Below the pieces are notes generated by a model. That model was not told the DNA's origin and ran no database searches. It worked only from the letters and a program-made list of their open reading frames with translations. DNA of 64,000 nt, from NCBI GenBank assembly GCA_020072845.1, contig JAIQGF010000003.1, positions 124,001-188,000 of the forward strand, read 5' to 3'. A program made the translations under genes and the position numbers. Of the stretch, positions 17,198-49,933 are shown one piece after another (the stretch's first letter is position 1; each line of letters starts with the position of its first letter). Source of the stretch: Terriglobia bacterium (GTDB lineage: Bacteria > Acidobacteriota > Terriglobia > Terriglobales > Acidobacteriaceae).

Positions 17198-18539
17198 GGG
17201 GAGCGCCGAAGCGCAACTGCGGTGTTGCGGCTGCCAAGCGATTCAGGATGACCCGCAGCCGGATTTCCGATGCGCCCAATGCGGCGAGCTGCTGGAAGTG
17301 ATTTATCCGGCATGGGAATCGGACGCGGGTCGTCCTTCTGCGGAAGGATTCAAGACGAAGTGGCGCGAACGAAAACTTTCCGGCTCCCAGGTGGACCGTA
17401 GCGGAGTCTGGCGTTTCAGGGAGTTGCTGCCAATTGTTCAAGCGCTGGATGAGGTAGTCACGCTGGCGGAGGGCAATACGCCGCTGTATGCGATGCCGCA
17501 AACGGCGCGCCGGCTGGGAATGCGGGCGCTGCTGGCGAAGCACCAGGGCATGAATCCGACGGGCTCTTTCAAGGACACAGGGATGACGGCGGCGGTATCG
17601 GTGGCGCACGCGCGGGGGTACCAGTGGGTGGTGTGCGCGTCGACGGGCAACACGTCGGCGTCGATGGCGGCGTATGCGGCGCGCGCCGGGCTGAAGGCCC
17701 TGGTGCTGCTGCCGGAAGGACAGATTGCGTGGGGAAAATTGTCGCAGGCGGTGGAATACGGCGCGGTCACGCTGCAACTGCGGACGGACTTCGACGGATG
17801 CTTGCGGGTGGCGATGGAGCTGGTGCGCAAGATGCCAATGTACATGCTGAACTCGATCAATCCGTACCGCATTGAAGGGCAGAAAACCGCGGCGATCGAA
17901 CTGATGGAGCAACTGGATTGGAACCCGCCGGAGCACATCATTGTGCCCGGCGGCAATTTGGGGAATTCTTCCGCGCTGGGCAAAGGACTGCTGGAGATGC
18001 ACCGGCTGGGGCTGATCGCGCGGCTGCCGAAGCTTTCCGTCGTTCAAGCCAAGGGCGCCAATCCGCTGTACACGGCGGTCCACGAGCACGGTGGCCGCAG
18101 TCTTGTGCCGGTGAAGGCGGAGACGATGGCAACCGCGATCCGCATTGGAAACCCCGTGTCGTGGCGAAAAGCGATACGGGTGCTGGAGGCAACCGGCGGA
18201 ACCTGCGAGCAGGTGAGCGAAGAAGAAATTGCGTTGGCGAAGGCGGAGATCGGCGCCGAAGGGCTGGGTTGCGAACCGGCATCGGCGGTCACGCTGGCGG
18301 GGCTGAAGAAACTGCTGCGCAGCGGGTTCGTCGCTGCCGATGAAAAAGTGGTGCTGGTGCTCACCGGCCATGTTCTCAAGGATCCCGACTACATCATGAA
18401 ATTCCACGCGGGAGAGTTGTTGGAGCGCGCTACCGAGCTGGGGAGCGAACTGGATCGCCGGCGCCGTCCTCCGATTCAGGTCGAGGCGGAATTGGAGAAA
18501 GTCATGGCGGTGCTGGAGAAGTTGCAGGGGGACGCATGA
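17166..18539 (+). CDS. thrC: Threonine synthase
   Basis: Threonine synthase converts O-phosphohomoserine to threonine. From the ATG at 17166 (GGAG upstream) the protein is 457 residues. A Cys-rich N-terminal motif (C20, C21, C23, then FRCAQC near 34-39) resembles the zinc-ribbon of the archaeal/plant-type group. The PLP lysine is K136 in NPTGSFKDTG; ASTGNTSASMAAYAA and IIVPGGNLGNSSALGKG are the phosphate-binding loops. It overlaps lysC upstream and thrB downstream (ATGA at 18536), so the three are translationally coupled. Confidence 0.94.
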   Translation: MNRPMPAAAAEGSAEAQLRCCGCQAIQDDPQPDFRCAQCGELLEVIYPAWESDAGRPSAEGFKTKWRERKLSGSQVDRSGVWRFRELLPIVQALDEVVTLAEGNTPLYAMPQTARRLGMRALLAKHQGMNPTGSFKDTGMTAAVSVAHARGYQWVVCASTGNTSASMAAYAARAGLKALVLLPEGQIAWGKLSQAVEYGAVTLQLRTDFDGCLRVAMELVRKMPMYMLNSINPYRIEGQKTAAIELMEQLDWNPPEHIIVPGGNLGNSSALGKGLLEMHRLGLIARLPKLSVVQAKGANPLYTAVHEHGGRSLVPVKAETMATAIRIGNPVSWRKAIRVLEATGGTCEQVSEEEIALAKAEIGAEGLGCEPASAVTLAGLKKLLRSGFVAADEKVVLVLTGHVLKDPDYIMKFHAGELLERATELGSELDRRRRPPIQVEAELEKVMAVLEKLQGDA

Positions 18540-40376: not shown

Positions 40377-41726
40377 CTAGTAGGCGCCGAAGAAGACAGC
40401 ACGCGGTGTTTGCAGGATGATCTTCAGATCCAACGCGAGCGACGCCGTTTCCACGTACTTGAGATCCAGCCGGACCATCTCGTCGAAGCTGGTACGGCTG
40501 CGGCCGTGCACCTGCCAGAGTCCGGTGATGCCAGGCTTGGCGGCGAGCATACGACGGCGGTGCCAAGTCTCGTAGCGATCAACTTCATAAGGCATCGCCG
40601 GCCGTGGTCCCACCAGTGACATTTCTCCCCGCAACACATTGAAGAACTGAGGGATCTCATCCAAACTCGTCTTCCGCAGCAAGTGGCCGAACGGCGTTAC
40701 TCGTGGGTCCTTGGTGAGCTTGTAAACGCCGTTGCCGTTGCTGTCGGTATGGAGGACGTCGTTAGCGCCGGCGATAAATCGCGTGACATATTCCTTGTGA
40801 ATGTTGTGGTCGCAGTTGGCATACATGGATCGGAACTTCAAGAGCGTGAAGTTGTGGCCATACTGCCCGACGCGGGTCTGCCGGATCAACACTGGTCCTT
40901 TGGAAGTGAGCTTGACTGCGACCGCAACCAGCACAATAACCGGCGAGAGCAGCAACAGGGCGATCGCGCTCCCGACCAGATCGATGGCCCGTTTTAACCA
41001 AGAGCTGGTCGCGTCCGATCGCATGGGGTGGGTGATATCGGGATAGAACGTCAGGTCCGCTTTCCTGGCCGCATCGCCGTTGGGAGGCTCCGGAAACACG
41101 TGGATCGAAATCCTGACGTGACTTTCCTGCTCGGCTGGGATCAGTTTACCCACCAGGCCGGTGAATTTCGCAAGCAGGACGTTCATTGCCACCGAGGGCT
41201 CATCTGCAATCTCGGTGAATAGGACCGCCATAATCGAGCCCGTCTTGTACCAGCCGACGAGGTCGGTGTCGCGGGTTGACGACAGCAAAGCTTCGGCAAG
41301 GCACGCCGGGACGCTATCGCGTCCGCCATTCGCGAACCGTGCGCCACCCTCCACCAGCATGACCAGAAACGGTTTGCCCGAACGCTCGCTCCGCTTGCGT
41401 TCCAGACAGAGAAAACGAAGGAACTCGTCTTCGCTCACAAAGGACCGCTTGCTGAGAGCCGTATTCTGATTGCCGTTGTAGGTGGCGGAGAACAACTCGT
41501 CCGTAGGATATTGCCGCGGCTGCTCCAAGCTGCCGGATACGCGACCTTCGCCTTGCGTACCCTGGTCAGGATTCACACCTGTGCTCTCACCCTTTATCGA
41601 TTCGGACTGTGACCCTGCCGACAGCCCCTGCTTCCGGCTGTGCGCCATCCCGCGGGCATTGCGCCCTGTTGTCGCCAAGCTGCTCCCTCCCCCTGTTGTC
41701 CCAAAAACTTCCGTCTCAGATTGCAA
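40377..41726 (-). CDS. Fusion of GGDEF-like domain and undecaprenyl-phosphate sugar phosphotransferase
   Basis: The C-terminal part (about 245-449) is a PglC/WbaP-type initiating transferase: a single membrane helix (about 247-270), then KFRSMYANCD, LLRKTSLDEIPQFFNVLRGEMSLVGPRP and PGITGLWQVHGRSRTSFDEMVRLDLKY (cited in parts). It starts EPS synthesis by placing sugar-1-phosphate on undecaprenyl phosphate. Residues about 98-215 resemble a nucleotide-cyclase/GGDEF fold, with DTDLVGWYKTGSIMAVLFTE replacing the GGDEF loop, so it is not a working diguanylate cyclase. Start uncertain: TTG 41726 or ATG 41648 (MAHSRKQ). Confidence 0.88.
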   Translation of the reverse strand: MQSETEVFGTTGGGSSLATTGRNARGMAHSRKQGLSAGSQSESIKGESTGVNPDQGTQGEGRVSGSLEQPRQYPTDELFSATYNGNQNTALSKRSFVSEDEFLRFLCLERKRSERSGKPFLVMLVEGGARFANGGRDSVPACLAEALLSSTRDTDLVGWYKTGSIMAVLFTEIADEPSVAMNVLLAKFTGLVGKLIPAEQESHVRISIHVFPEPPNGDAARKADLTFYPDITHPMRSDATSSWLKRAIDLVGSAIALLLLSPVIVLVAVAVKLTSKGPVLIRQTRVGQYGHNFTLLKFRSMYANCDHNIHKEYVTRFIAGANDVLHTDSNGNGVYKLTKDPRVTPFGHLLRKTSLDEIPQFFNVLRGEMSLVGPRPAMPYEVDRYETWHRRRMLAAKPGITGLWQVHGRSRTSFDEMVRLDLKYVETASLALDLKIILQTPRAVFFGAY

Positions 41727-42048: not shown

Positions 42049-42972
42049 TTAGGGCTTGGCGGCGGTTTGAGGGGGATGTCCATAGCCGCCGTATCCCTTG
42101 TAGTAGGAACCGTTGTAACCCGAAGCCGGCGTAGCCTGGTTCAGAACCACCCCGACGATCGCCTTCTCACGGAATTCCCGAGCGGCTCGCTGCGCCTGTT
42201 CAGCAGGAGTGCTGCCGGAGCGCACGACGAGCAGTACACCGTCGCAATATTCCGCCAACATGCTGGCATCAGCCACCGGAACTGCGGGAGGCGAGTCAAT
42301 TACGATCCAATCGAAGTTCGGTGCCAACTGCTGCAGCAGGGTTTTGCAGCGGCCGTTGGCAATCAACTCCGCTGGGTTCGCTACCTCCGTGCCCCCGGGG
42401 ATAAAGAACAGCCCGTCCAGGGGGCCGCGTTGCAGAACCGCGTACTCATCGGCCGTTCCATGAAGGTAGTCAGTCATTCCCGGAGTTGCCCGCGCTCCCA
42501 GGCATTCGTGCAAGGATGCGCGGCGCAGATCGCCGTCAATCAGCAATACCCGGCGACCGTGCTGCCGGGCGAGGGCCTGGGCGAGGTTGGCGGAGACAAA
42601 CGACTTGCCTTCACCGGGCAAAGCGCTACCCACCAAAACGACTTTGAGCGGGCGTTTCTCACGGATCTGGAACAAGCGCGAACGGAGGGTTCGGAATTCC
42701 TCCATTCCCACTTCGTAGTGTTTGGAAGAGTCAAAAAACAACATCGACTTCGGGTCAGGCTTCCATGGCGCCGGGACACAACCGGCGATGCCGGATTCCA
42801 TCTTGCCCGGTCTCAAAGTGGGAAGTTGAGGTTCCACGGCGGCAGGAACTGAGGCGGCCGGCACCTCGCCGGGCAGGACTGGAATTGCCAGTTCACTAGC
42901 CGACAGTTCTCCCGGCTGGGCCGACTTGCGCTCCTGCTCTGCTTTCTGTAATGCCTCGTGAATGCGGCTCAT
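42049..42972 (-). CDS. CpsD-type tyrosine autokinase (BY-kinase)
   Basis: Bacterial tyrosine kinase controlling EPS chain length. The 307-residue protein has a leading MSRIHEALQKAE motif typical of PEP-CTERM-locus kinases, Walker A ALPGEGKS (117-124), Walker A' VLLIDGDLRR (142-151) and Walker B WIVIDSPPA. The C-terminal tail is Tyr-rich (GYNGSYYKGYGGYGHPP, about 288-304), the usual autophosphorylation cluster. It is separate from the Wzz-like membrane partner encoded upstream, as in two-component Wzz/BY-kinase systems. Start overlaps the AAA ATPase stop by 4 bp. Confidence 0.94.
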   Translation of the reverse strand: MSRIHEALQKAEQERKSAQPGELSASELAIPVLPGEVPAASVPAAVEPQLPTLRPGKMESGIAGCVPAPWKPDPKSMLFFDSSKHYEVGMEEFRTLRSRLFQIREKRPLKVVLVGSALPGEGKSFVSANLAQALARQHGRRVLLIDGDLRRASLHECLGARATPGMTDYLHGTADEYAVLQRGPLDGLFFIPGGTEVANPAELIANGRCKTLLQQLAPNFDWIVIDSPPAVPVADASMLAEYCDGVLLVVRSGSTPAEQAQRAAREFREKAIVGVVLNQATPASGYNGSYYKGYGGYGHPPQTAAKP

Positions 42973-43916
42973 CTGATTTTCCTGTCAATTGCGTGAATCG
43001 CGGCGTCACGCACTGTCTCCGTGGAACCGAGCGAAGTCCGCAGCGCGTCGATGAGGCGCCGCGTCTCGCCATCGCCATCGGACCGGATGGGAGGTATGGG
43101 CGAAACTACATCCAGCTCGAACTCGCGCGCGACGGTGTTGATTGTCTCGGGTGCGATGGGCTGCTGGCGGTCCACGAACCCGCTGATCAGAGCGTGTTCG
43201 CAGAGCAGATTGACGACTCGCGGGATGCCTTGCGAATACTCGAAGATCTTACTCACCGCTTCCGGACTAAAGATCGGCTCGCCATTCGCGCCGGCGATCC
43301 GCAAGCGTTGCGCGATGTAAGCACCGGTGTCGGTCAAGGTCAGCGGATGCGTACGGCAACGAAGGGTAATGCGCTGCCGCAGTTGGCGCAGGTTGGCGTC
43401 GCGCAGCTTCTGTTCGAGCTCCGGTTGCCCGGAAAGAATGATCTGCAACAGCTTTTCCGTGGAAGTCTCCAGATTGGTCAGCAGCCGGATCTCTTCCAGC
43501 AGCTCCAAGGAAAGATTCTGGGCTTCATCGATGACCAGAACGGCGGTTTCGCCGTCCCGGTAACGATCGAGCAGCCAGTGGTTCAAGCGCTGCAGCATCT
43601 CCGCCTTGTCGCGCGATTCGGTCGTCAGGCCAAAATCGTTCAGCATGAACTCGAAGAACTGGGGAACATCGAGCCGAGGATTGAACATGAACGCGGTCGA
43701 GATTCGGTTGGTGCGCAGCCAGTCCATGAGCCGGTTCAAGAGCGTGGTCTTGCCGGTCCCGACCTCACCCGTCAGCAGAATGAATCCCTTGCGCCTCTGC
43801 ACGCCGTAGGCCAAGGACGAGAGCGCCTCATGAACCTGCCGCGTTGGGTAGAGGAATCGCGGGTCAGGGTTGACGTTAAACGGATTGGCGCGGAGCCGAT
43901 AAAATGCCTTGTACAT
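42969..43916 (-). CDS. AAA ATPase (ExeA/XrtA-locus type)
   Basis: A 315-residue P-loop ATPase: Walker A GEVGTGKTTLLNRL at residues 50-63, Walker B AVLVIDEAQNL (about 120), and an N-terminal MYKAFYRLRANPFNVNPDPRFLYP motif shared with ExeA/GspA-type proteins. Homologues sit between wzz and cpsD genes in many PEP-CTERM/exosortase EPS loci; role unknown, possibly assembly of the export complex. Upstream neighbour is 3 bp away, downstream overlap is 4 bp. Confidence 0.9.
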   Translation of the reverse strand: MYKAFYRLRANPFNVNPDPRFLYPTRQVHEALSSLAYGVQRRKGFILLTGEVGTGKTTLLNRLMDWLRTNRISTAFMFNPRLDVPQFFEFMLNDFGLTTESRDKAEMLQRLNHWLLDRYRDGETAVLVIDEAQNLSLELLEEIRLLTNLETSTEKLLQIILSGQPELEQKLRDANLRQLRQRITLRCRTHPLTLTDTGAYIAQRLRIAGANGEPIFSPEAVSKIFEYSQGIPRVVNLLCEHALISGFVDRQQPIAPETINTVAREFELDVVSPIPPIRSDGDGETRRLIDALRTSLGSTETVRDAAIHAIDRKIR

Positions 43917-43919
43917 TGG

Positions 43920-45446
43920 TTAAGCCCCCAGCACTTGTCGCGCGCGACTTGGTTCGCGACTCGATCGCGGTTTTCCCTTCGGCGCGCGGCGTGCGGCAGC
44001 GGCCCCGACCGGCGGCACCATGGCCAGCGTCGGAAGCTTCAAGTAATATTCGACGTCGCTCTCGGTGCGCACGGACTTATCGCGGAATTCGAGAATCGCA
44101 ACCGAAGCGAGACCGAATCCGAACCCTCCCAGAACGCCGAAGGCGGCAAACTGCCATCGCTTAGGAAAGGCCGGCGTTTCAGGAAGATTCGGTGGATCCA
44201 TGACGCGAAACTGCTCGCCCTGTTGGCGGCGTTCGAGATTGGTCGCCATCTCGGATTGGGTCTTCTTGTTCAGCAGGTCGTCATAGTTTTTTTGCGCGGT
44301 CGTGTAATCACGCGTCAGCGATTTGTATTCCTCCTCAACTCTTGGACTCAACTGCACGCGGGATTGATAGAGTCCGATTTGCTGGCGGATGCGTTGTTGC
44401 TCCGAGGAGCGCTCTTTCACAACGCTTTCCAACTGGTGGATCTGCAGCCGCAACTGCTGCAGCTCCGGAGGTTGGCTTAACCCGGCTTTGTTGGCATCCT
44501 TGGAGACGACGTCGCCGGCGGAAGCGCTCTCGCTGATCGTCTTCTTGAGCTTCGCAATCTCGCTTTTCAGCTTGATAATGTCAGGATGATCTTCGGTGTA
44601 CTTGCTCTGCAGGGTGACCAGCTGTGATTGCAACAAAGACAACTGGTGTTCCAGCGTGTCCGCGTTAAGACCGACCCGGGTTGCACGCCAGGCGGCGGTC
44701 TGCTGGGCCAGCAGGGACTCGGAATAGGTCTTGTCCTGCTGGGCGCGAGCCAGCGCCTGGGTGGTCGCCTCGAGTTGGGCGTTGAGCGTCGCCAGCATGC
44801 TCAGGTTGGTTTGCTCCTGTTCAGGAAGCTGGCCGGTATATTTCATCTTGAACTGGGCCAGCTTGGAATCTTGATCGTCAAGCTTGCGCTTGGCCTCGTC
44901 GAGTTGGCTGCTCAGGAAGTCGGTCGTCCCCACCAACCCCTGCTCGCGCGCTTTGAGGTTTTCCGACACGAACATGGAGGTGATCTCGGCGCAAATCTGC
45001 TGCGCCAACCGGGCATTCTTGGCGGTGAAGCTGATGGAAAAACCGGGCATATCGCCACGCCGGGCGTCGTTGGCGCGAATTGGCGTAACCGTGATCAGCT
45101 TGCGCATGCGGTCCACCAACTCTTCCATGGGCACCTTGCCCTGGTCGTCTTTGAATAACCCGAACCGCTCGATCATCGGTTGCAGTCGCGTGCGACTGAG
45201 GATCTGTTCTTGCATGGTCGCCAGGCGGCCATTCAAATCCTCGGTCACCACGGATTTCACGAAGGTGTCAGGCACTTTTTGCTGATCCACTAACACAGTT
45301 GTCTGCGACGTGTAGCGATTCGGAATTATGAGCGATATCAGAACCGCGAGAAGAGGGCCGATCACGATCGGAAGAACAAGCCACCACACCCGCCGGCGAG
45401 CTATCGCCAGGTAGTCGTGCAGGTTGAGTTCGCGATCACCTAACAT
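43920..45446 (-). CDS. Wzz-like polysaccharide chain-length determinant
   Basis: An inner-membrane co-polymerase (508 residues from ATG 45446, GAGG upstream; an ATG at 45464 is the alternative). The N-terminal helix (ARRRVWWLVLPIVIGPLLAVLISLIIP) and the C-terminal helix (about 445-470; WQFAAFGVLGGFGFGLASVAILEF) bracket a long periplasmic coiled-coil region. The second helix is preceded by PPNLPETPAFPKR, the Pro-rich signature of Wzz/PCP proteins. It sets polymer length with the BY-kinase encoded downstream. Confidence 0.93.
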   Translation of the reverse strand: MLGDRELNLHDYLAIARRRVWWLVLPIVIGPLLAVLISLIIPNRYTSQTTVLVDQQKVPDTFVKSVVTEDLNGRLATMQEQILSRTRLQPMIERFGLFKDDQGKVPMEELVDRMRKLITVTPIRANDARRGDMPGFSISFTAKNARLAQQICAEITSMFVSENLKAREQGLVGTTDFLSSQLDEAKRKLDDQDSKLAQFKMKYTGQLPEQEQTNLSMLATLNAQLEATTQALARAQQDKTYSESLLAQQTAAWRATRVGLNADTLEHQLSLLQSQLVTLQSKYTEDHPDIIKLKSEIAKLKKTISESASAGDVVSKDANKAGLSQPPELQQLRLQIHQLESVVKERSSEQQRIRQQIGLYQSRVQLSPRVEEEYKSLTRDYTTAQKNYDDLLNKKTQSEMATNLERRQQGEQFRVMDPPNLPETPAFPKRWQFAAFGVLGGFGFGLASVAILEFRDKSVRTESDVEYYLKLPTLAMVPPVGAAAARRAPKGKPRSSREPSRARQVLGA

Positions 45447-45477
45447 TCCATTCCTCACGTTCATGCTTGCGCGGCCC

Positions 45478-46890
45478 TCATTCCATCCGGATGGGCCGGA
45501 ATCCCCAGTCGAAGCCTACAGTGAAGAGGTGCCGAATGCTCTGGTCGCCGCACGTTGGACAAAACAACAGTCCGGCCTGCCGCTGGAACGAATAGCTGGC
45601 AAACACGCCACTGTACAAACCCAGTTGGCGTTCCACACCGGTGTTGGCGAAGAAAGTCGAGTAGGAACTACCATTGATCAGACCCGAGTTGTGCGAGTAG
45701 CCGACGCTGGTGGTGGTGAGCCAGCGGCGCAGGAACGGCCGAGAGAACCCGCCGGATACGACATCGCTATTGGCGCCAGGCTGGACACCCGAGCCGGCCG
45801 TGACGTTGCGTGCATAGGCCGCCGTGAAATCCATGCGATGGGCCAGGTAGTGCAGGTTCGCCTGTGCATTCCATAAAGTGAGATCTTGCGACTGGACGGC
45901 AGTGTCTACCTCCGAGATGCCGCCGCCGCCACCCAGCTGCAAGCTCAAACGGCCGGTGACACGCCGCCCGTACGCCAATTGCGCGACGTGATTGCGCGTC
46001 CGGGTATGCAGATCCAAATACCCATATTGCGTGAAACCATAGCTAATACCGACGGTGTCGCGGGCGGTGAGATTGCGGCTGTATCCGACGCTGCCCCCCT
46101 CTTGGTTGCTTTCAATCAGGTTCCCGTCGGGCGATCGAAGGATGCCGTAGTTCCCAATGACGGTCACGGTGCTGTGCGCGTCGAGATGGTAATCGGTTTC
46201 GACCACGGCGGTGTTGCTCACCTGCGATCCAACCTGCGTCAGCAGATTCTGCGCCGGTACTAGGGTGGGATTCAGGCCAGCGAGGTTGGCGCCACCGGCG
46301 AGGGCGGCGGGACCGATGACGGCAGCAGCCGCATTCGCACCTCCGCCGAAAGCGGAGCTCGAGGTATAACCGACTTGATCGCTGAAGAACAGCGACCAAC
46401 GGCGGAAATCCAATCTCTCCGTTAGGCCAAAGAGCTGGAAGTTAGAGGATCGCCCGCCGAGTATGGCGACGTTGCTCCCATTGGCATTGAACATTCCGCC
46501 GCCCTGGTACCGCATGGTAAACAACTGGCTGCGGGAAACGCGCTGCAACTCGAATTCGCCGGTGATGCTGCTCACCGTGCCCACGTCGGAATCCGGCACG
46601 AAAACGTTGGGATTCGAATCCACGGTTTGCGCGAAATGCAGTTTCGGCAAAAAGAAACTGGGCAGATCGGGCCTGCCGAGGGTCAGTGTCTGGGCACCGG
46701 TCAGCGGACGGGTGTCGGGCGTCATGGTCGGGCCAGCTTGATCAGGCGCGGCCACTGCAGGGGCGTCGTGCTGGTACACCGGCGGCTCCGGAACGGCCGG
46801 GGCATCGGCTTTGTCCTGCGCTGATGCGCCGGTGAACAAAGCCAGCCACAACAGACAACCAACTTGCCATCGAGTGTGATACATCATCAT
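45478..46890 (-). CDS. Outer-membrane beta-barrel protein of the EPS locus
   Basis: A signal peptide (ending ASAQ) leads into a Pro/Ala linker and then about 400 residues of alternating, aromatic-rich beta strands (SQLFTMRYQGGGMF, HSTVTVIGNYGILRS, GYLDLHTRTRNHVAQLAYGRR...) ending at DWGFRPIRME. Such barrels in PEP-CTERM-type EPS loci are thought to be alternative polysaccharide exit pores or barrel scaffolds. Three ATGs in a row (46890, 46887, 46884) follow AAAGGA; the third has the best spacing. It is 7 bp after the Wza-like gene. Confidence 0.85.
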   Translation of the reverse strand: MMMYHTRWQVGCLLWLALFTGASAQDKADAPAVPEPPVYQHDAPAVAAPDQAGPTMTPDTRPLTGAQTLTLGRPDLPSFFLPKLHFAQTVDSNPNVFVPDSDVGTVSSITGEFELQRVSRSQLFTMRYQGGGMFNANGSNVAILGGRSSNFQLFGLTERLDFRRWSLFFSDQVGYTSSSAFGGGANAAAAVIGPAALAGGANLAGLNPTLVPAQNLLTQVGSQVSNTAVVETDYHLDAHSTVTVIGNYGILRSPDGNLIESNQEGGSVGYSRNLTARDTVGISYGFTQYGYLDLHTRTRNHVAQLAYGRRVTGRLSLQLGGGGGISEVDTAVQSQDLTLWNAQANLHYLAHRMDFTAAYARNVTAGSGVQPGANSDVVSGGFSRPFLRRWLTTTSVGYSHNSGLINGSSYSTFFANTGVERQLGLYSGVFASYSFQRQAGLLFCPTCGDQSIRHLFTVGFDWGFRPIRME

Positions 46891-46897
46891 CGTCCTT

Positions 46898-47506
46898 TCA
46901 CGGCACCACGATCGTGTCACCGGGTTTCAAAAGGATGTTCTGCTCCGCATTCCGGCCTTTCACGACGTCGTGGTAATTGAACGGCAACTTGCTCTGCTTG
47001 CCGTTTTCGACTCGTAGGACATACATGTTCTTGGAGTTTGCAAACTGCGTAAACCCACCCGCGCTGGACAAGCCCTGGAGCACAGTGATGTTCGACACCA
47101 GAGGATACGCACCGGCCTTAGTCACCTCTCCAATTACGAAATAGCGGCGGCTGTTCACCTGAGTGACGACAACCGTGACGCGGGGCTGTTCCAGGTACTT
47201 CTTCAGCCTGTCCGTAACCTGGGCTGCGAGTTGGGTCGCAGTCAACCCGGCTGCTTGGACGTCGTTCAGCAGAGGGAGGGAAATCTTCCCATCGGGGCGG
47301 ACCGGGACGGTAGCCGACATCTCGGCTTCTTTCCAGACGTTTACGTTCAACATATCTTCCGCACCAATGATGTAGTCAGAATCATGGGTGGCCGCTACGG
47401 CAGCCGCCGGCGGCTTGTCATCTCCAGGGTTGCCAGCCCAGACCAGTCCAGTGGCGGCAAGTAGCAGCGCCAAGACCAACGTCGCAGGGAACACTCGGGA
47501 CTTCAT
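46898..47506 (-). CDS. Wza-like polysaccharide export protein
   Basis: A 202-residue exported protein: signal peptide (MKSRVFPATLVLALLLAATG), Poly_export domain (DYIIGAEDMLNVNVWKEAEMSATVPVRPDGKISLPLLNDVQAAG, cited in parts, residues 44-88) and a SLBB-type domain (RYFVIGEVTKAGAYPLVSNITVLQGLSSAGGF). It has no lipobox Cys, unlike classical Wza, and is short, so the barrel encoded next may provide the outer-membrane pore. Start overlaps the upstream regulator stop. Confidence 0.93.
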   Translation of the reverse strand: MKSRVFPATLVLALLLAATGLVWAGNPGDDKPPAAAVAATHDSDYIIGAEDMLNVNVWKEAEMSATVPVRPDGKISLPLLNDVQAAGLTATQLAAQVTDRLKKYLEQPRVTVVVTQVNSRRYFVIGEVTKAGAYPLVSNITVLQGLSSAGGFTQFANSKNMYVLRVENGKQSKLPFNYHDVVKGRNAEQNILLKPGDTIVVP

Positions 47507-48468
47507 GGATGCGTCTCCTCAGAACTCGAATATTCGTCGTCGAGGCCGATCTGTTTCAGTTTGTAAAGCAAAGCTTTGTAGCTGATCTGCAGTTCCTGGG
47601 CGGCTCGCTTGCGGTTCCATCGAGTGCGTGACAGCACCTTCAGGATGAGTTCGCGCTCTGCCTGGCGGGAAGCGACACGAGCAGCCTGTTTCAGGGAGAG
47701 ACCTTCGGAATCGGCGGCGCGCTCCAACCCCTCGGAATGGTTGGAGCGCAAAACCATCATGGCTACGTGTTCGTCATCAACGGCGACGACGGTTTTGACC
47801 GCATTCTTGAGTTCGCGAACATTACCCGGCCAAGCGTACTCAATTAAATACTGCTGCAAGCGAGGGCTCAGGTCGCGCTTCGGCCGGGCAAACACCCGAG
47901 CATAAACGTCCAGAAAATGATCTGCCAGCAGCAGGATGTCCTCCCTGCGGTGACGCAACGGCGGCATGCGCAGGCAAACACTGCTGACCAGGTAGTAGAG
48001 GTCTTCGCGAAAGCGCCCGCTACGGATCTCCTGTTCCAGGCTGCTCGTGCAGGAGGCGATCAGACGGGGACGCGTCGAGGACTCTGGCGAGCGCCCGAAA
48101 AAGAACGACAGCATATTGGCCTGCATGGCGGACGGGAGATCGGATATGTGCCGCACAAAGACTGTCCCGGCGGGAGCGCTGCCACCATCGTGATTCTTGC
48201 CGTCGAACGGCATAAAGGAATCATGGGCTGCATCGAGGCAAGCGACCTCAGCAAAACGAGCATGCTGCCGTCCGGACATCGCATGAATCTGCTGTGCCAG
48301 GCAGCGTTTGCCCACCCCTTCTTCGCCCAAGATCAGGACCGGAGAGCTACCCATTGCAACTTTCTCAGCCGCCGTCTCCAGCGCCCGCATAGCCGGACTT
48401 GCGCTGCGGACGAAGACCTCGCCGCTGTCAGCACCGGCGCTGTGAGACCGAGGAGAGTCGCTAGGCAT
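47503..48468 (-). CDS. NtrC/Fis-family regulator with a degenerate AAA+ core
   Basis: From ATG 48468 (GGAGG upstream) the protein has 321 residues. The fold follows sigma-54 activators, with Walker A as GEEGVGKR (48-55), the FREDLYY...MPPLRHRREDILLLADHFL region, and a C-terminal Fis-type HTH (ELILKVLSRTRWNRKRAAQELQISYKALLYKLKQIGL, cited in parts). The sigma-54 contact loop GAFTGA is absent, and Walker B reads GTVFVRHIS instead of GTLFLDEIG, losing the catalytic Asp and Glu. No receiver domain precedes it. It is likely a DNA-binding protein that no longer activates sigma-54. Confidence 0.85.
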   Translation of the reverse strand: MPSDSPRSHSAGADSGEVFVRSASPAMRALETAAEKVAMGSSPVLILGEEGVGKRCLAQQIHAMSGRQHARFAEVACLDAAHDSFMPFDGKNHDGGSAPAGTVFVRHISDLPSAMQANMLSFFFGRSPESSTRPRLIASCTSSLEQEIRSGRFREDLYYLVSSVCLRMPPLRHRREDILLLADHFLDVYARVFARPKRDLSPRLQQYLIEYAWPGNVRELKNAVKTVVAVDDEHVAMMVLRSNHSEGLERAADSEGLSLKQAARVASRQAERELILKVLSRTRWNRKRAAQELQISYKALLYKLKQIGLDDEYSSSEETHP

Positions 48469-48526
48469 TCGTCCTCCGGGGAGGCAATAACGCGTTGAAG
48501 CGCAAGGGAGCCACAACTTTGCGTAA

Positions 48527-48541
48527 GCAACTGCAGGACCA
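48527..48541 (-). promoter_or_regulatory. Sigma-54-like element driving the export arm
   Basis: Minus-strand TGGTCCTGCAGTTGC matches 8 of 11 fixed positions, including GG and TTGC. A start near 48515 would leave a leader of about 47 bases before the regulator gene. Confidence 0.4.
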
Positions 48542-48883
48542 ACGTGGCAACTGCGGAAGGGAACAGAAGGCACGCGGCAGGCTAGGGGACAAGAATCGCT
48601 CTGGAGAGCGGACGAGGTCAGATTTTCGCCATTTTTCCGGTTGCTGGGGGGTGCTTGCTGACCATGCGTCCGTGGCGCTTGTCACGCTGTAACTGATTAC
48701 ATCTACAGTGGCTTAGGTATTGCAGACGGTCGAACACCAAGCCATTTTCCCGCCGGCAAATCGGTTTTGCCAGGGGCTGAGGATGCGCAACCGGCACGCA
48801 GCCTAATGGTCTATCAAATTACTAAAGTTTCGCACAGGGCTGCGCGGAGTTGCCGCAATTAGCCAAGAAATCGGCCCTCGCGA

Positions 48884-48900
48884 GGGAAATTGTTTTCCAC
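48884..48900. promoter_or_regulatory. Palindromic operator-like site, copy 1
   Basis: GGGAAATTGTTTTCCAC, an imperfect palindrome (GGAAAT/TTTTCC arms), 16 of 17 bases identical to the copy at 49006-49022. Confidence 0.6.
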
Positions 48901-49005
48901 TCTGCTCTAGGAATCTTCCACCTCTGAAACTGGCCAATCTCCCTTATAAAACAAGGAGATAGCAACTTCTTTATCGGATGGTGTGCCGGGCAGGGAGGGG
49001 AAAAA

Positions 49006-49022
49006 GGGAAAATGTTTTCCAC
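49006..49022. promoter_or_regulatory. Palindromic operator-like site, copy 2
   Basis: GGGAAAATGTTTTCCAC with perfect GGAAAA/TTTTCC arms about a TG centre. It lies 122 bp from copy 1, in the same orientation. Confidence 0.6.
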
Positions 49023-49097
49023 CATGTTCTGCTGAGGTAAGGGTGCTGATTGTCGGCGGTCAAAAGCGGACACGCGGGATGTTATTGATAGCGCAGA

Positions 49098-49177: not shown

Positions 49178-49411
49178 GATCACAGTGAAAAGTTTTGCGT
49201 TGCTAATTGTTTTCGACTAAAGATTGTTAGGACACGCACGTGGCACTGGGAAACTCCAAGGTAATTCCGCGGTTTCGGCAGACAAGCGCCTTGCCCTGGG
49301 CGATGGAACCGGACTTGCTCACGTGCACTGCAAGGGCAGGAGTTGCACAGAGTGAGATGTGACTCAGAGGGCGGAGCTACGTACAGCGGCACCTATAATG
49401 ACGTAAGTCAC

Positions 49412-49933
49412 ATGCTGGAGCTGCCGTTGCCCACTCCGCTGCCACAATGGTACGCCGTGCAGACGCGTCCGCGGCACGAGAAGAAAGTCGCTGCCGAGTT
49501 GGCGCGAAAAGGCATTGAGAATTACGTGCCGCTCCTGGGTCAGATCCATCGTTGGAGCGACCGGCGAAAGAAAGTCGAAGTACCCCTCTTCCCGGGTTAC
49601 GCGTTCGTGCATGCAGCCCTGTCACCAGAAACGCGGATAGCAATCCTGAGGGTCTGGGGAGTGTTGAACTTCGTCGGTTCGCAAAACCTGGGCACACCGA
49701 TCCCGGATAAGCAGATCGAATCCATCCGGATGCTGATGGCCCAAAATCTCCAAGCCACACCGTATCCGTTCCTCAGGAGCGGTCAACGTGTGGTGGTGCG
49801 CAGCGGAGCACTGGCGGGACTGGAAGGCATTTTCTTGGGAACTGCGGGGAGGAAGCGATTGGTGATTTCAATCGAATCCATCCAGCAATCCGTCGCTCTC
49901 ACGATTGAGGGCTACGACATCCAGCCAGTTTAA
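49412..49933 (+). CDS. NusG/RfaH-like transcription antiterminator
   Basis: A 173-residue NusG paralogue: an N-terminal NGN domain with WYAVQTRPRHEKKVAAELARKGIENYVP and VPLFPGYAFVH motifs, and a KOW domain at about 125-173 (SGQRVVVRSGALAGLEGIFLG). RfaH/UpxY-type paralogues bind RNA polymerase and allow transcription through long surface-polysaccharide operons, which fits its position as first gene of the biosynthesis arm. The ATG at 49412 has no ribosome-binding sequence (TGACGTAAGTCA sits there instead); GTG 49352 with AGGAG upstream is an alternative start. Confidence 0.9.
   Translation: MLELPLPTPLPQWYAVQTRPRHEKKVAAELARKGIENYVPLLGQIHRWSDRRKKVEVPLFPGYAFVHAALSPETRIAILRVWGVLNFVGSQNLGTPIPDKQIESIRMLMAQNLQATPYPFLRSGQRVVVRSGALAGLEGIFLGTAGRKRLVISIESIQQSVALTIEGYDIQPV

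Follow-up and report, generated by a model that had tools for sequence, protein, structure and literature searches.

The first gene of an EPS operon in the 64,000-nucleotide window, i.e., the whole stretch of DNA analysed here, encodes an NtrC-family protein of 321 amino acids without a GAFTGA loop, which was named REG in this study. By its domains (Sigma54_activat, lid and HTH) REG is a bEBP, but the GAFTGA loop, the Walker B pair DE and the sensor-I Asn are missing, and the loss of the loop and of both Walker B acids, which had been observed in a sequence-only reading of this DNA, is confirmed. We propose, giving the proposal about an even chance, that REG is a loop-less and ATPase-dead paralogue of an intact bEBP of the same genome (PA), which would sit on the enhancers of PA and act as a feedback antagonist or modulator of its own operon. 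GAFTGA-less activators are usually seen as strays that have gone over to sigma-70. Here, a whole GAFTGA-less clade remains under apparent sigma-54 control and heads the operon that it should regulate.

Features of the window around the REG gene (window coordinates; residue numbers are those of REG)
Feature	Position	Strand	Remarks
Sugar transferase, last operon gene	40377..41726	-	
Tyrosine autokinase	42049..42972	-	
XrtA/PEP-CTERM-type ATPase	42969..43916	-	TIGR03015-like
Chain-length determinant	43920..45464	-	TIGR03007-like
480-aa protein, probably outer-membrane barrel	45478..46920	-	no family match; syntenic homologue in nearly all loci
Polysaccharide export protein, operon gene 2	46898..47506	-	
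REG gene, first gene of EPS operon	47503..48468	-	NtrC-family, GAFTGA-less and Walker-B-less
Fis-type HTH, residues 281-308	47545..47628	-	purifying selection
Arginine-finger region GRFREDLYYLVSS, residues 151-163	47980..48018	-	Leu in place of second finger Arg
Former Walker B GTVFVRHIS, residues 101-109	48142..48168	-	
Shortened segment replacing GAFTGA loop, residues 72-99	48172..48255	-	
Walker A GEEGVGKR, residues 48-55	48304..48327	-	intact
-24/-12 sigma-54-like site CGTTGGTCCTGCAGTTGCTTA	48524..48544	-	weak; position conserved in orthologues
Putative enhancer (UAS) copy GAGGGAAATTGTTTTCCACT, palindromic	48882..48901		motif search and matrix scan
Putative enhancer (UAS) copy AAGGGAAAATGTTTTCCACC, palindromic	49004..49023		motif search and matrix scan
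-24/-12 sigma-54-like site CGATGGAACCGGACTTGCTCA, facing UpxY gene	49301..49321	+	strong
UpxY/RfaH-type transcription antiterminator, divergent from REG	49343..49933	+	NF033644, 132.5 bits (cut-off 100)

The translation and the alignment agree with the sequence-only reading on Walker B, where RH is found instead of DE and no acidic residue is left. The loop region has 26 residues as compared to 39 in the intact bEBPs of the genome (FMPFDGKNHDGGSAP corresponds to residues 84-98), the sensor-I Asn is replaced by Thr at the equivalent place, and the second arginine finger has been lost (YYR to YYL) with the Arg of the first finger kept. Walker A had been described as weak, which was wrong: the GxxGxGK motif is intact, its Lys is shared by 11/11 aligned orthologues, and Glu rather than Ser/Thr is what this family normally has directly after GK. 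The Pfam matches were PF00158 (Sigma54_activat, 76.3 bits against a cut-off of 20.2, split into two pieces), the AAA+ lid PF25601 (72.7 bits, cut-off 27) and HTH_8 PF02954 (43.6 bits, cut-off 22), the last of which bears out the claim of an intact Fis-type HTH. No receiver domain was matched in REG, and the AAA+ domain begins near residue 17. Structure prediction had been suggested as a check; in the AlphaFold model the AAA+ core is confident (mean pLDDT 80) and residues 91-98, the expected place of the loop, are of low confidence, and the Foldseek neighbours of the model are ZraR, NtrX, NtrC1 and also VpsR (7v2b). The first 16 residues vary among the orthologues, and VFVRS was rejected as a FleQ-type LFRS motif because no such motif is conserved there. 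A start of REG at GTG 48573, which would give a longer version, was rejected in favour of ATG 48468, since this GTG comes before the position of the orthologous sigma-54 site.

A search profile made from 11 orthologues was run over 398 genomes of the host's family. The REG orthologue group scored 409-509 bits and was present in about 80 of these genomes, and nearly all other bEBPs scored no more than about 298 bits, with a few matches at 336-362 bits. A contig scan for REG orthologues gave, among the matches listed, only ordinary bEBPs of 29-37% identity. Motifs were counted in 40 distinct orthologues including the window protein: the GAFTGA loop and the sensor-I Asn are each missing in 40/40, an acid is kept at the first Walker B place in 28 and at the second in 38, and Walker A is retained in all orthologues inspected. 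Of the 40, the window protein alone has lost both Walker B acids; the second arginine finger is gone from this protein and L177 only. Recurrence of these losses at the EPS loci of relatives had been raised earlier as a question, and it was found for the loop (40/40 orthologues, so that none of them keeps both motifs); the total loss of Walker B is real in the window protein but specific to its lineage. In other families of the class, eight REG loci were read, which lack the loop, have an intact Walker A and keep the arginine fingers; five Walker B motifs were located there by script, four being DE and one DG (L229, the same protein as L034). Because the loop is also missing in these families and their Walker B is mostly kept, the loss of the loop is probably ancestral, and the decay of the ATPase probably later and graded. 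The Walker A, the arginine fingers and mostly the Walker B kept in the other families also suggest that the ATPase of REG may have been active through most of its history, which simple competition for a site would not need.

An error of sequencing or assembly at Walker B or in the loop is hardly credible. The genome is a draft of 27 contigs, but the loop is missing in every orthologue, which already refutes an error there, and the codons CGG CAC are several base changes away from any acidic pair, so that a one-base error would not give them; there is no frameshift, and the first acid is also missing in the nearest relatives, which have S and T instead. A decaying gene, on its way to a pseudogene in the lineage of the window and with no present function, is very improbable. 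The loss of catalytic residues goes further in the window protein and REG2, a second copy described below, than in any other relative read, but the frame of REG is open, and its first position in the operon and two enhancer copies are retained. In addition, the 28 HTH residues are all identical to those of L180 with synonymous changes in 15 of the 28 codons, which indicates purifying selection on DNA binding. On the basis of this HTH conservation and the motif losses of the orthologues, both pseudogene and sequencing error were rejected.

The operon is composed of REG and the genes for an export protein, a barrel, a chain-length determinant, an XrtA-type ATPase, a tyrosine kinase and a sugar transferase. 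REG had been placed inside the EPS operon, and it does belong to it, but as the first gene of the same seven-gene operon in 20/20 mapped loci, some of which end before the operon does. G001 is rearranged; the operon is split there and its second half (chain length and kinase) is headed by REG2, which is more decayed than REG. REG2 (L178:16406-17386; G001:C129), the second copy, also lacks GAFTGA, has HN at Walker B and is without arginine fingers; two enhancer-like palindromes are found at 17541 and 17564. In L172 the divergent neighbours of REG are an exosortase, a DUF3485 protein and a TPR protein, and the host genome has an exosortase on the contig of REG, at a distance of about 37 kb. The PrsR/PrsK system of PEP-CTERM/exosortase (TIGR02915) comprises a bEBP, a kinase and a sigma-54 promoter with enhancer at EPS/exosortase loci, where the exosortase-linked genes under PrsR are subject to enhancer and sigma-54 control (PMC1569441), and the REG operon is XrtA-like as in that system. 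An assignment of REG to PrsR was rejected (155.6 bits against the cut-off of 502.6), and RR, an NtrC-type response regulator of the host, also falls below this cut-off though it is intact (353.5 bits).

A palindrome-constrained motif search with random seeds gave the candidate enhancer consensus TGGGAAAANNNTTTTCCCA, which was recovered unsupervised in 39/39 regions upstream of REG, mostly 120-160 bp above the sigma-54 site. For a scan of the window, a matrix was made from which the window and its two genus mates had been left out, and the two window copies ranked first and second in the 64 kb (19.4 and 16.7 bits); the best score per shuffled window (n=100) was 11.6 bits on average and 19.7 at the highest. 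These copies are the palindromes that the sequence-only reading had noted at 48884 and 49006, and they are real and above chance. A strict enhancer pattern (GGRAAANNNNTTTYCC) failed to match the window's own copies, and a looser pattern gave 9 matches, six of them away from REG or PA.

Nearly all orthologues have a -24/-12 site at about 75-100 bp before the start of REG, and this site was also found before REG in other families of the class. Its score averaged 12.8, with means of 10.3 for control zones and 10.4 for the antisense strand (Wilcoxon against the control zones, p about 1e-7, uncorrected for shared ancestry). RpoN is encoded in the host genome. Sigma-54-like promoters had been said to flank REG; when both strands of the window were scored with a matrix built without the window, the UpxY-side site (49301, plus strand) ranked first, and the REG-side site (48544, minus strand) proved weak and ranked 29, yet it stands at the orthologous position. 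The strong site precedes the gene of the UpxY antiterminator, and its place suggests that the right-hand glycan genes have an antitermination step under sigma-54 control.

The cis layout of REG suggests sigma-54 rather than sigma-70 promoters. The loss of GAFTGA is known from TyrR, HupR, DhaR, VpsR, YplP and some NtrCs (PMC3162934; PMC10274813), and TyrR, PhhR, HupR, DhaR and YplP are, like REG, bEBP descendants with a defective GAFTGA for which sigma-54 is not usable, TyrR and PhhR being repressors (PMC3162934). VpsR and the NtrC of Rhodobacter and Caulobacter, all GAFTGA-less, work at sigma-70 promoters (PMC10274813; PMC3162934), and REG alone might likewise act on sigma-70 polymerase, perhaps with its Walker A pocket occupied by a nucleotide or c-di-GMP, the EPS genes being activated or repressed; we consider this unlikely. 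VpsR of Vibrio cholerae is, like REG, an NtrC-family EPS regulator without GAFTGA (PMC3162934), its AAA+ core (PDB 7v2b) can be aligned with that of REG and was among the fold-search matches, EPS is controlled by both VpsR and FleQ, and all REG orthologues have retained the Walker A. However, REG lacks the receiver domain of NtrC and the receiver-like domain of VpsR, it is, unlike VpsR, the first gene of the EPS operon, its N-terminus is variable without the FleQ-type motif, and the promoter conserved before it across the class is of the -24/-12 type with an upstream enhancer. The NtrC proteins of R. capsulatus and Caulobacter are DNA-binding regulators with the GAFTGA loop deleted, as REG is (PMC10274813), but they have receiver domains and require ATP binding or hydrolysis, whereas the window protein is without Walker B, the sensor-I Asn and one arginine finger.

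Besides REG, the host genome encodes 18 bEBPs in which the sigma-54 interaction domain is full-length. One of them is PA (G000:C17:29309-30370), located on another contig than REG, which has no receiver and keeps the GAFTGA, the Walker B DE and the ATN that REG lacks; PA adjoins RR and the histidine kinase next to RR. The recognition helix ISY[KR]ALLYK was found only in PA and RR among 13 of the genome's own bEBPs whose C-termini were compared, and the helices of REG and PA are nearly the same with an overall identity of only about 37%. The palindrome TGGGAAAANNNTTTTCCCA occurs upstream of PA in 9 loci, the host included (G000:C17:30564), usually together with a sigma-54 site and in the same layout as at REG. 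A true activator had been expected elsewhere in the genome, and PA, with its shared palindrome and helix, matches this expectation. In a tree made by a quick method (supports are SH-aLRT only), REG, PA and RR were grouped apart from other bEBPs (support 99), and REG was monophyletic (support 100) with REG2 within the clade. Of 18 REG-positive genomes in which PA was looked for (a chosen, not random, sample), 15 had it and the other three showed none at the threshold used. In L210 and L212 the EPS operon begins with an intact PA itself, in the slot of REG, and no REG was found in these two genomes. L215 has an operon-head gene with a scrambled loop and an intact Walker B; this protein (L215:9777-10850) and a second PA-type protein of the same kind (L213:10680-11726) are possible independent intermediates of the same decay. 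In G494 (C63:22323-24821) REG and PA stand in tandem on one strand with about 560 bp between them, which is consistent with an origin by tandem duplication.

In the circuit that we propose, the EPS operon would be transcribed from a sigma-54 promoter fired by PA, and perhaps also by RR, with PA acting from the palindromic enhancer. REG should bind the enhancers of PA because of its almost identical recognition helix, and it would do so both in the REG/UpxY intergenic region and at the PA promoter. Since REG would neither contact sigma-54 nor hydrolyse ATP, it would occupy or poison the enhancer, and the outcome would be negative feedback or tuning of EPS expression. Three steps of this circuit we infer from the sequences: the binding of REG to these palindromes, the choice of PA over RR as the activator, and a negative net effect of REG. 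Its role may instead be positive, by analogy with Caulobacter NtrC mutants without GAFTGA, which promote some sigma-54 genes (PMC12421884). The earlier suggestion that REG antagonises a true activator, or serves it as a scaffold, fits well with the intact PA on the other contig, and REG may antagonise PA, help it or act by itself.

The scaffold version, with REG as a non-catalytic AAA+ subunit that would assemble together with PA at the enhancer and tune or even help activation, is in our judgement rather improbable. The AAA+ core and lid are retained with a predicted fold like that of ZraR and NtrC1, the graded decay, loop first and ATPase later, is as expected if ring assembly remained useful, and REG and PA co-occur, in G494 even in tandem; against this, their identity is only about 37% and the window protein is without the second arginine finger. 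Beyond the antagonist preferred here, a wider and tentative proposal, which we regard as somewhat doubtful, is that operon-encoded AAA+ subunits across the class lost first the loop and then the ATPase and now join the intact paralogue at shared enhancers or displace it there. If true, sigma-54 control would have a layer of regulatory pseudo-ATPases that has so far not been described. In the open-access literature searched, no bEBP with a defective GAFTGA was found to use, at a sigma-54 promoter, the enhancer sites of an intact paralogue, and no loop-less paralogue was found that heads an operon and has its enhancer and promoter type in common with an intact sister. MphX, a bEBP antagonist, was set aside as a relative because its sequence is unrelated to known regulators (PMC3063778). 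The intact paralogue and the proteins with the loop lost, the ATPase eroded and the ATPase dead form a natural series, which separates the roles of loop, hydrolysis and DNA binding for testing, and the circuit is a concrete prediction of EPS control for these bacteria.

Two minor observations were also made. The contig of PA (G000:C17, 68 kb) carries five full-length sigma-54 interaction domains, those of PA and RR among them. The sugar transferase has an unusual N-terminal half, the first 200 residues of which have no Pfam match and look, by eye only, vaguely like a degenerate GGDEF-like domain.
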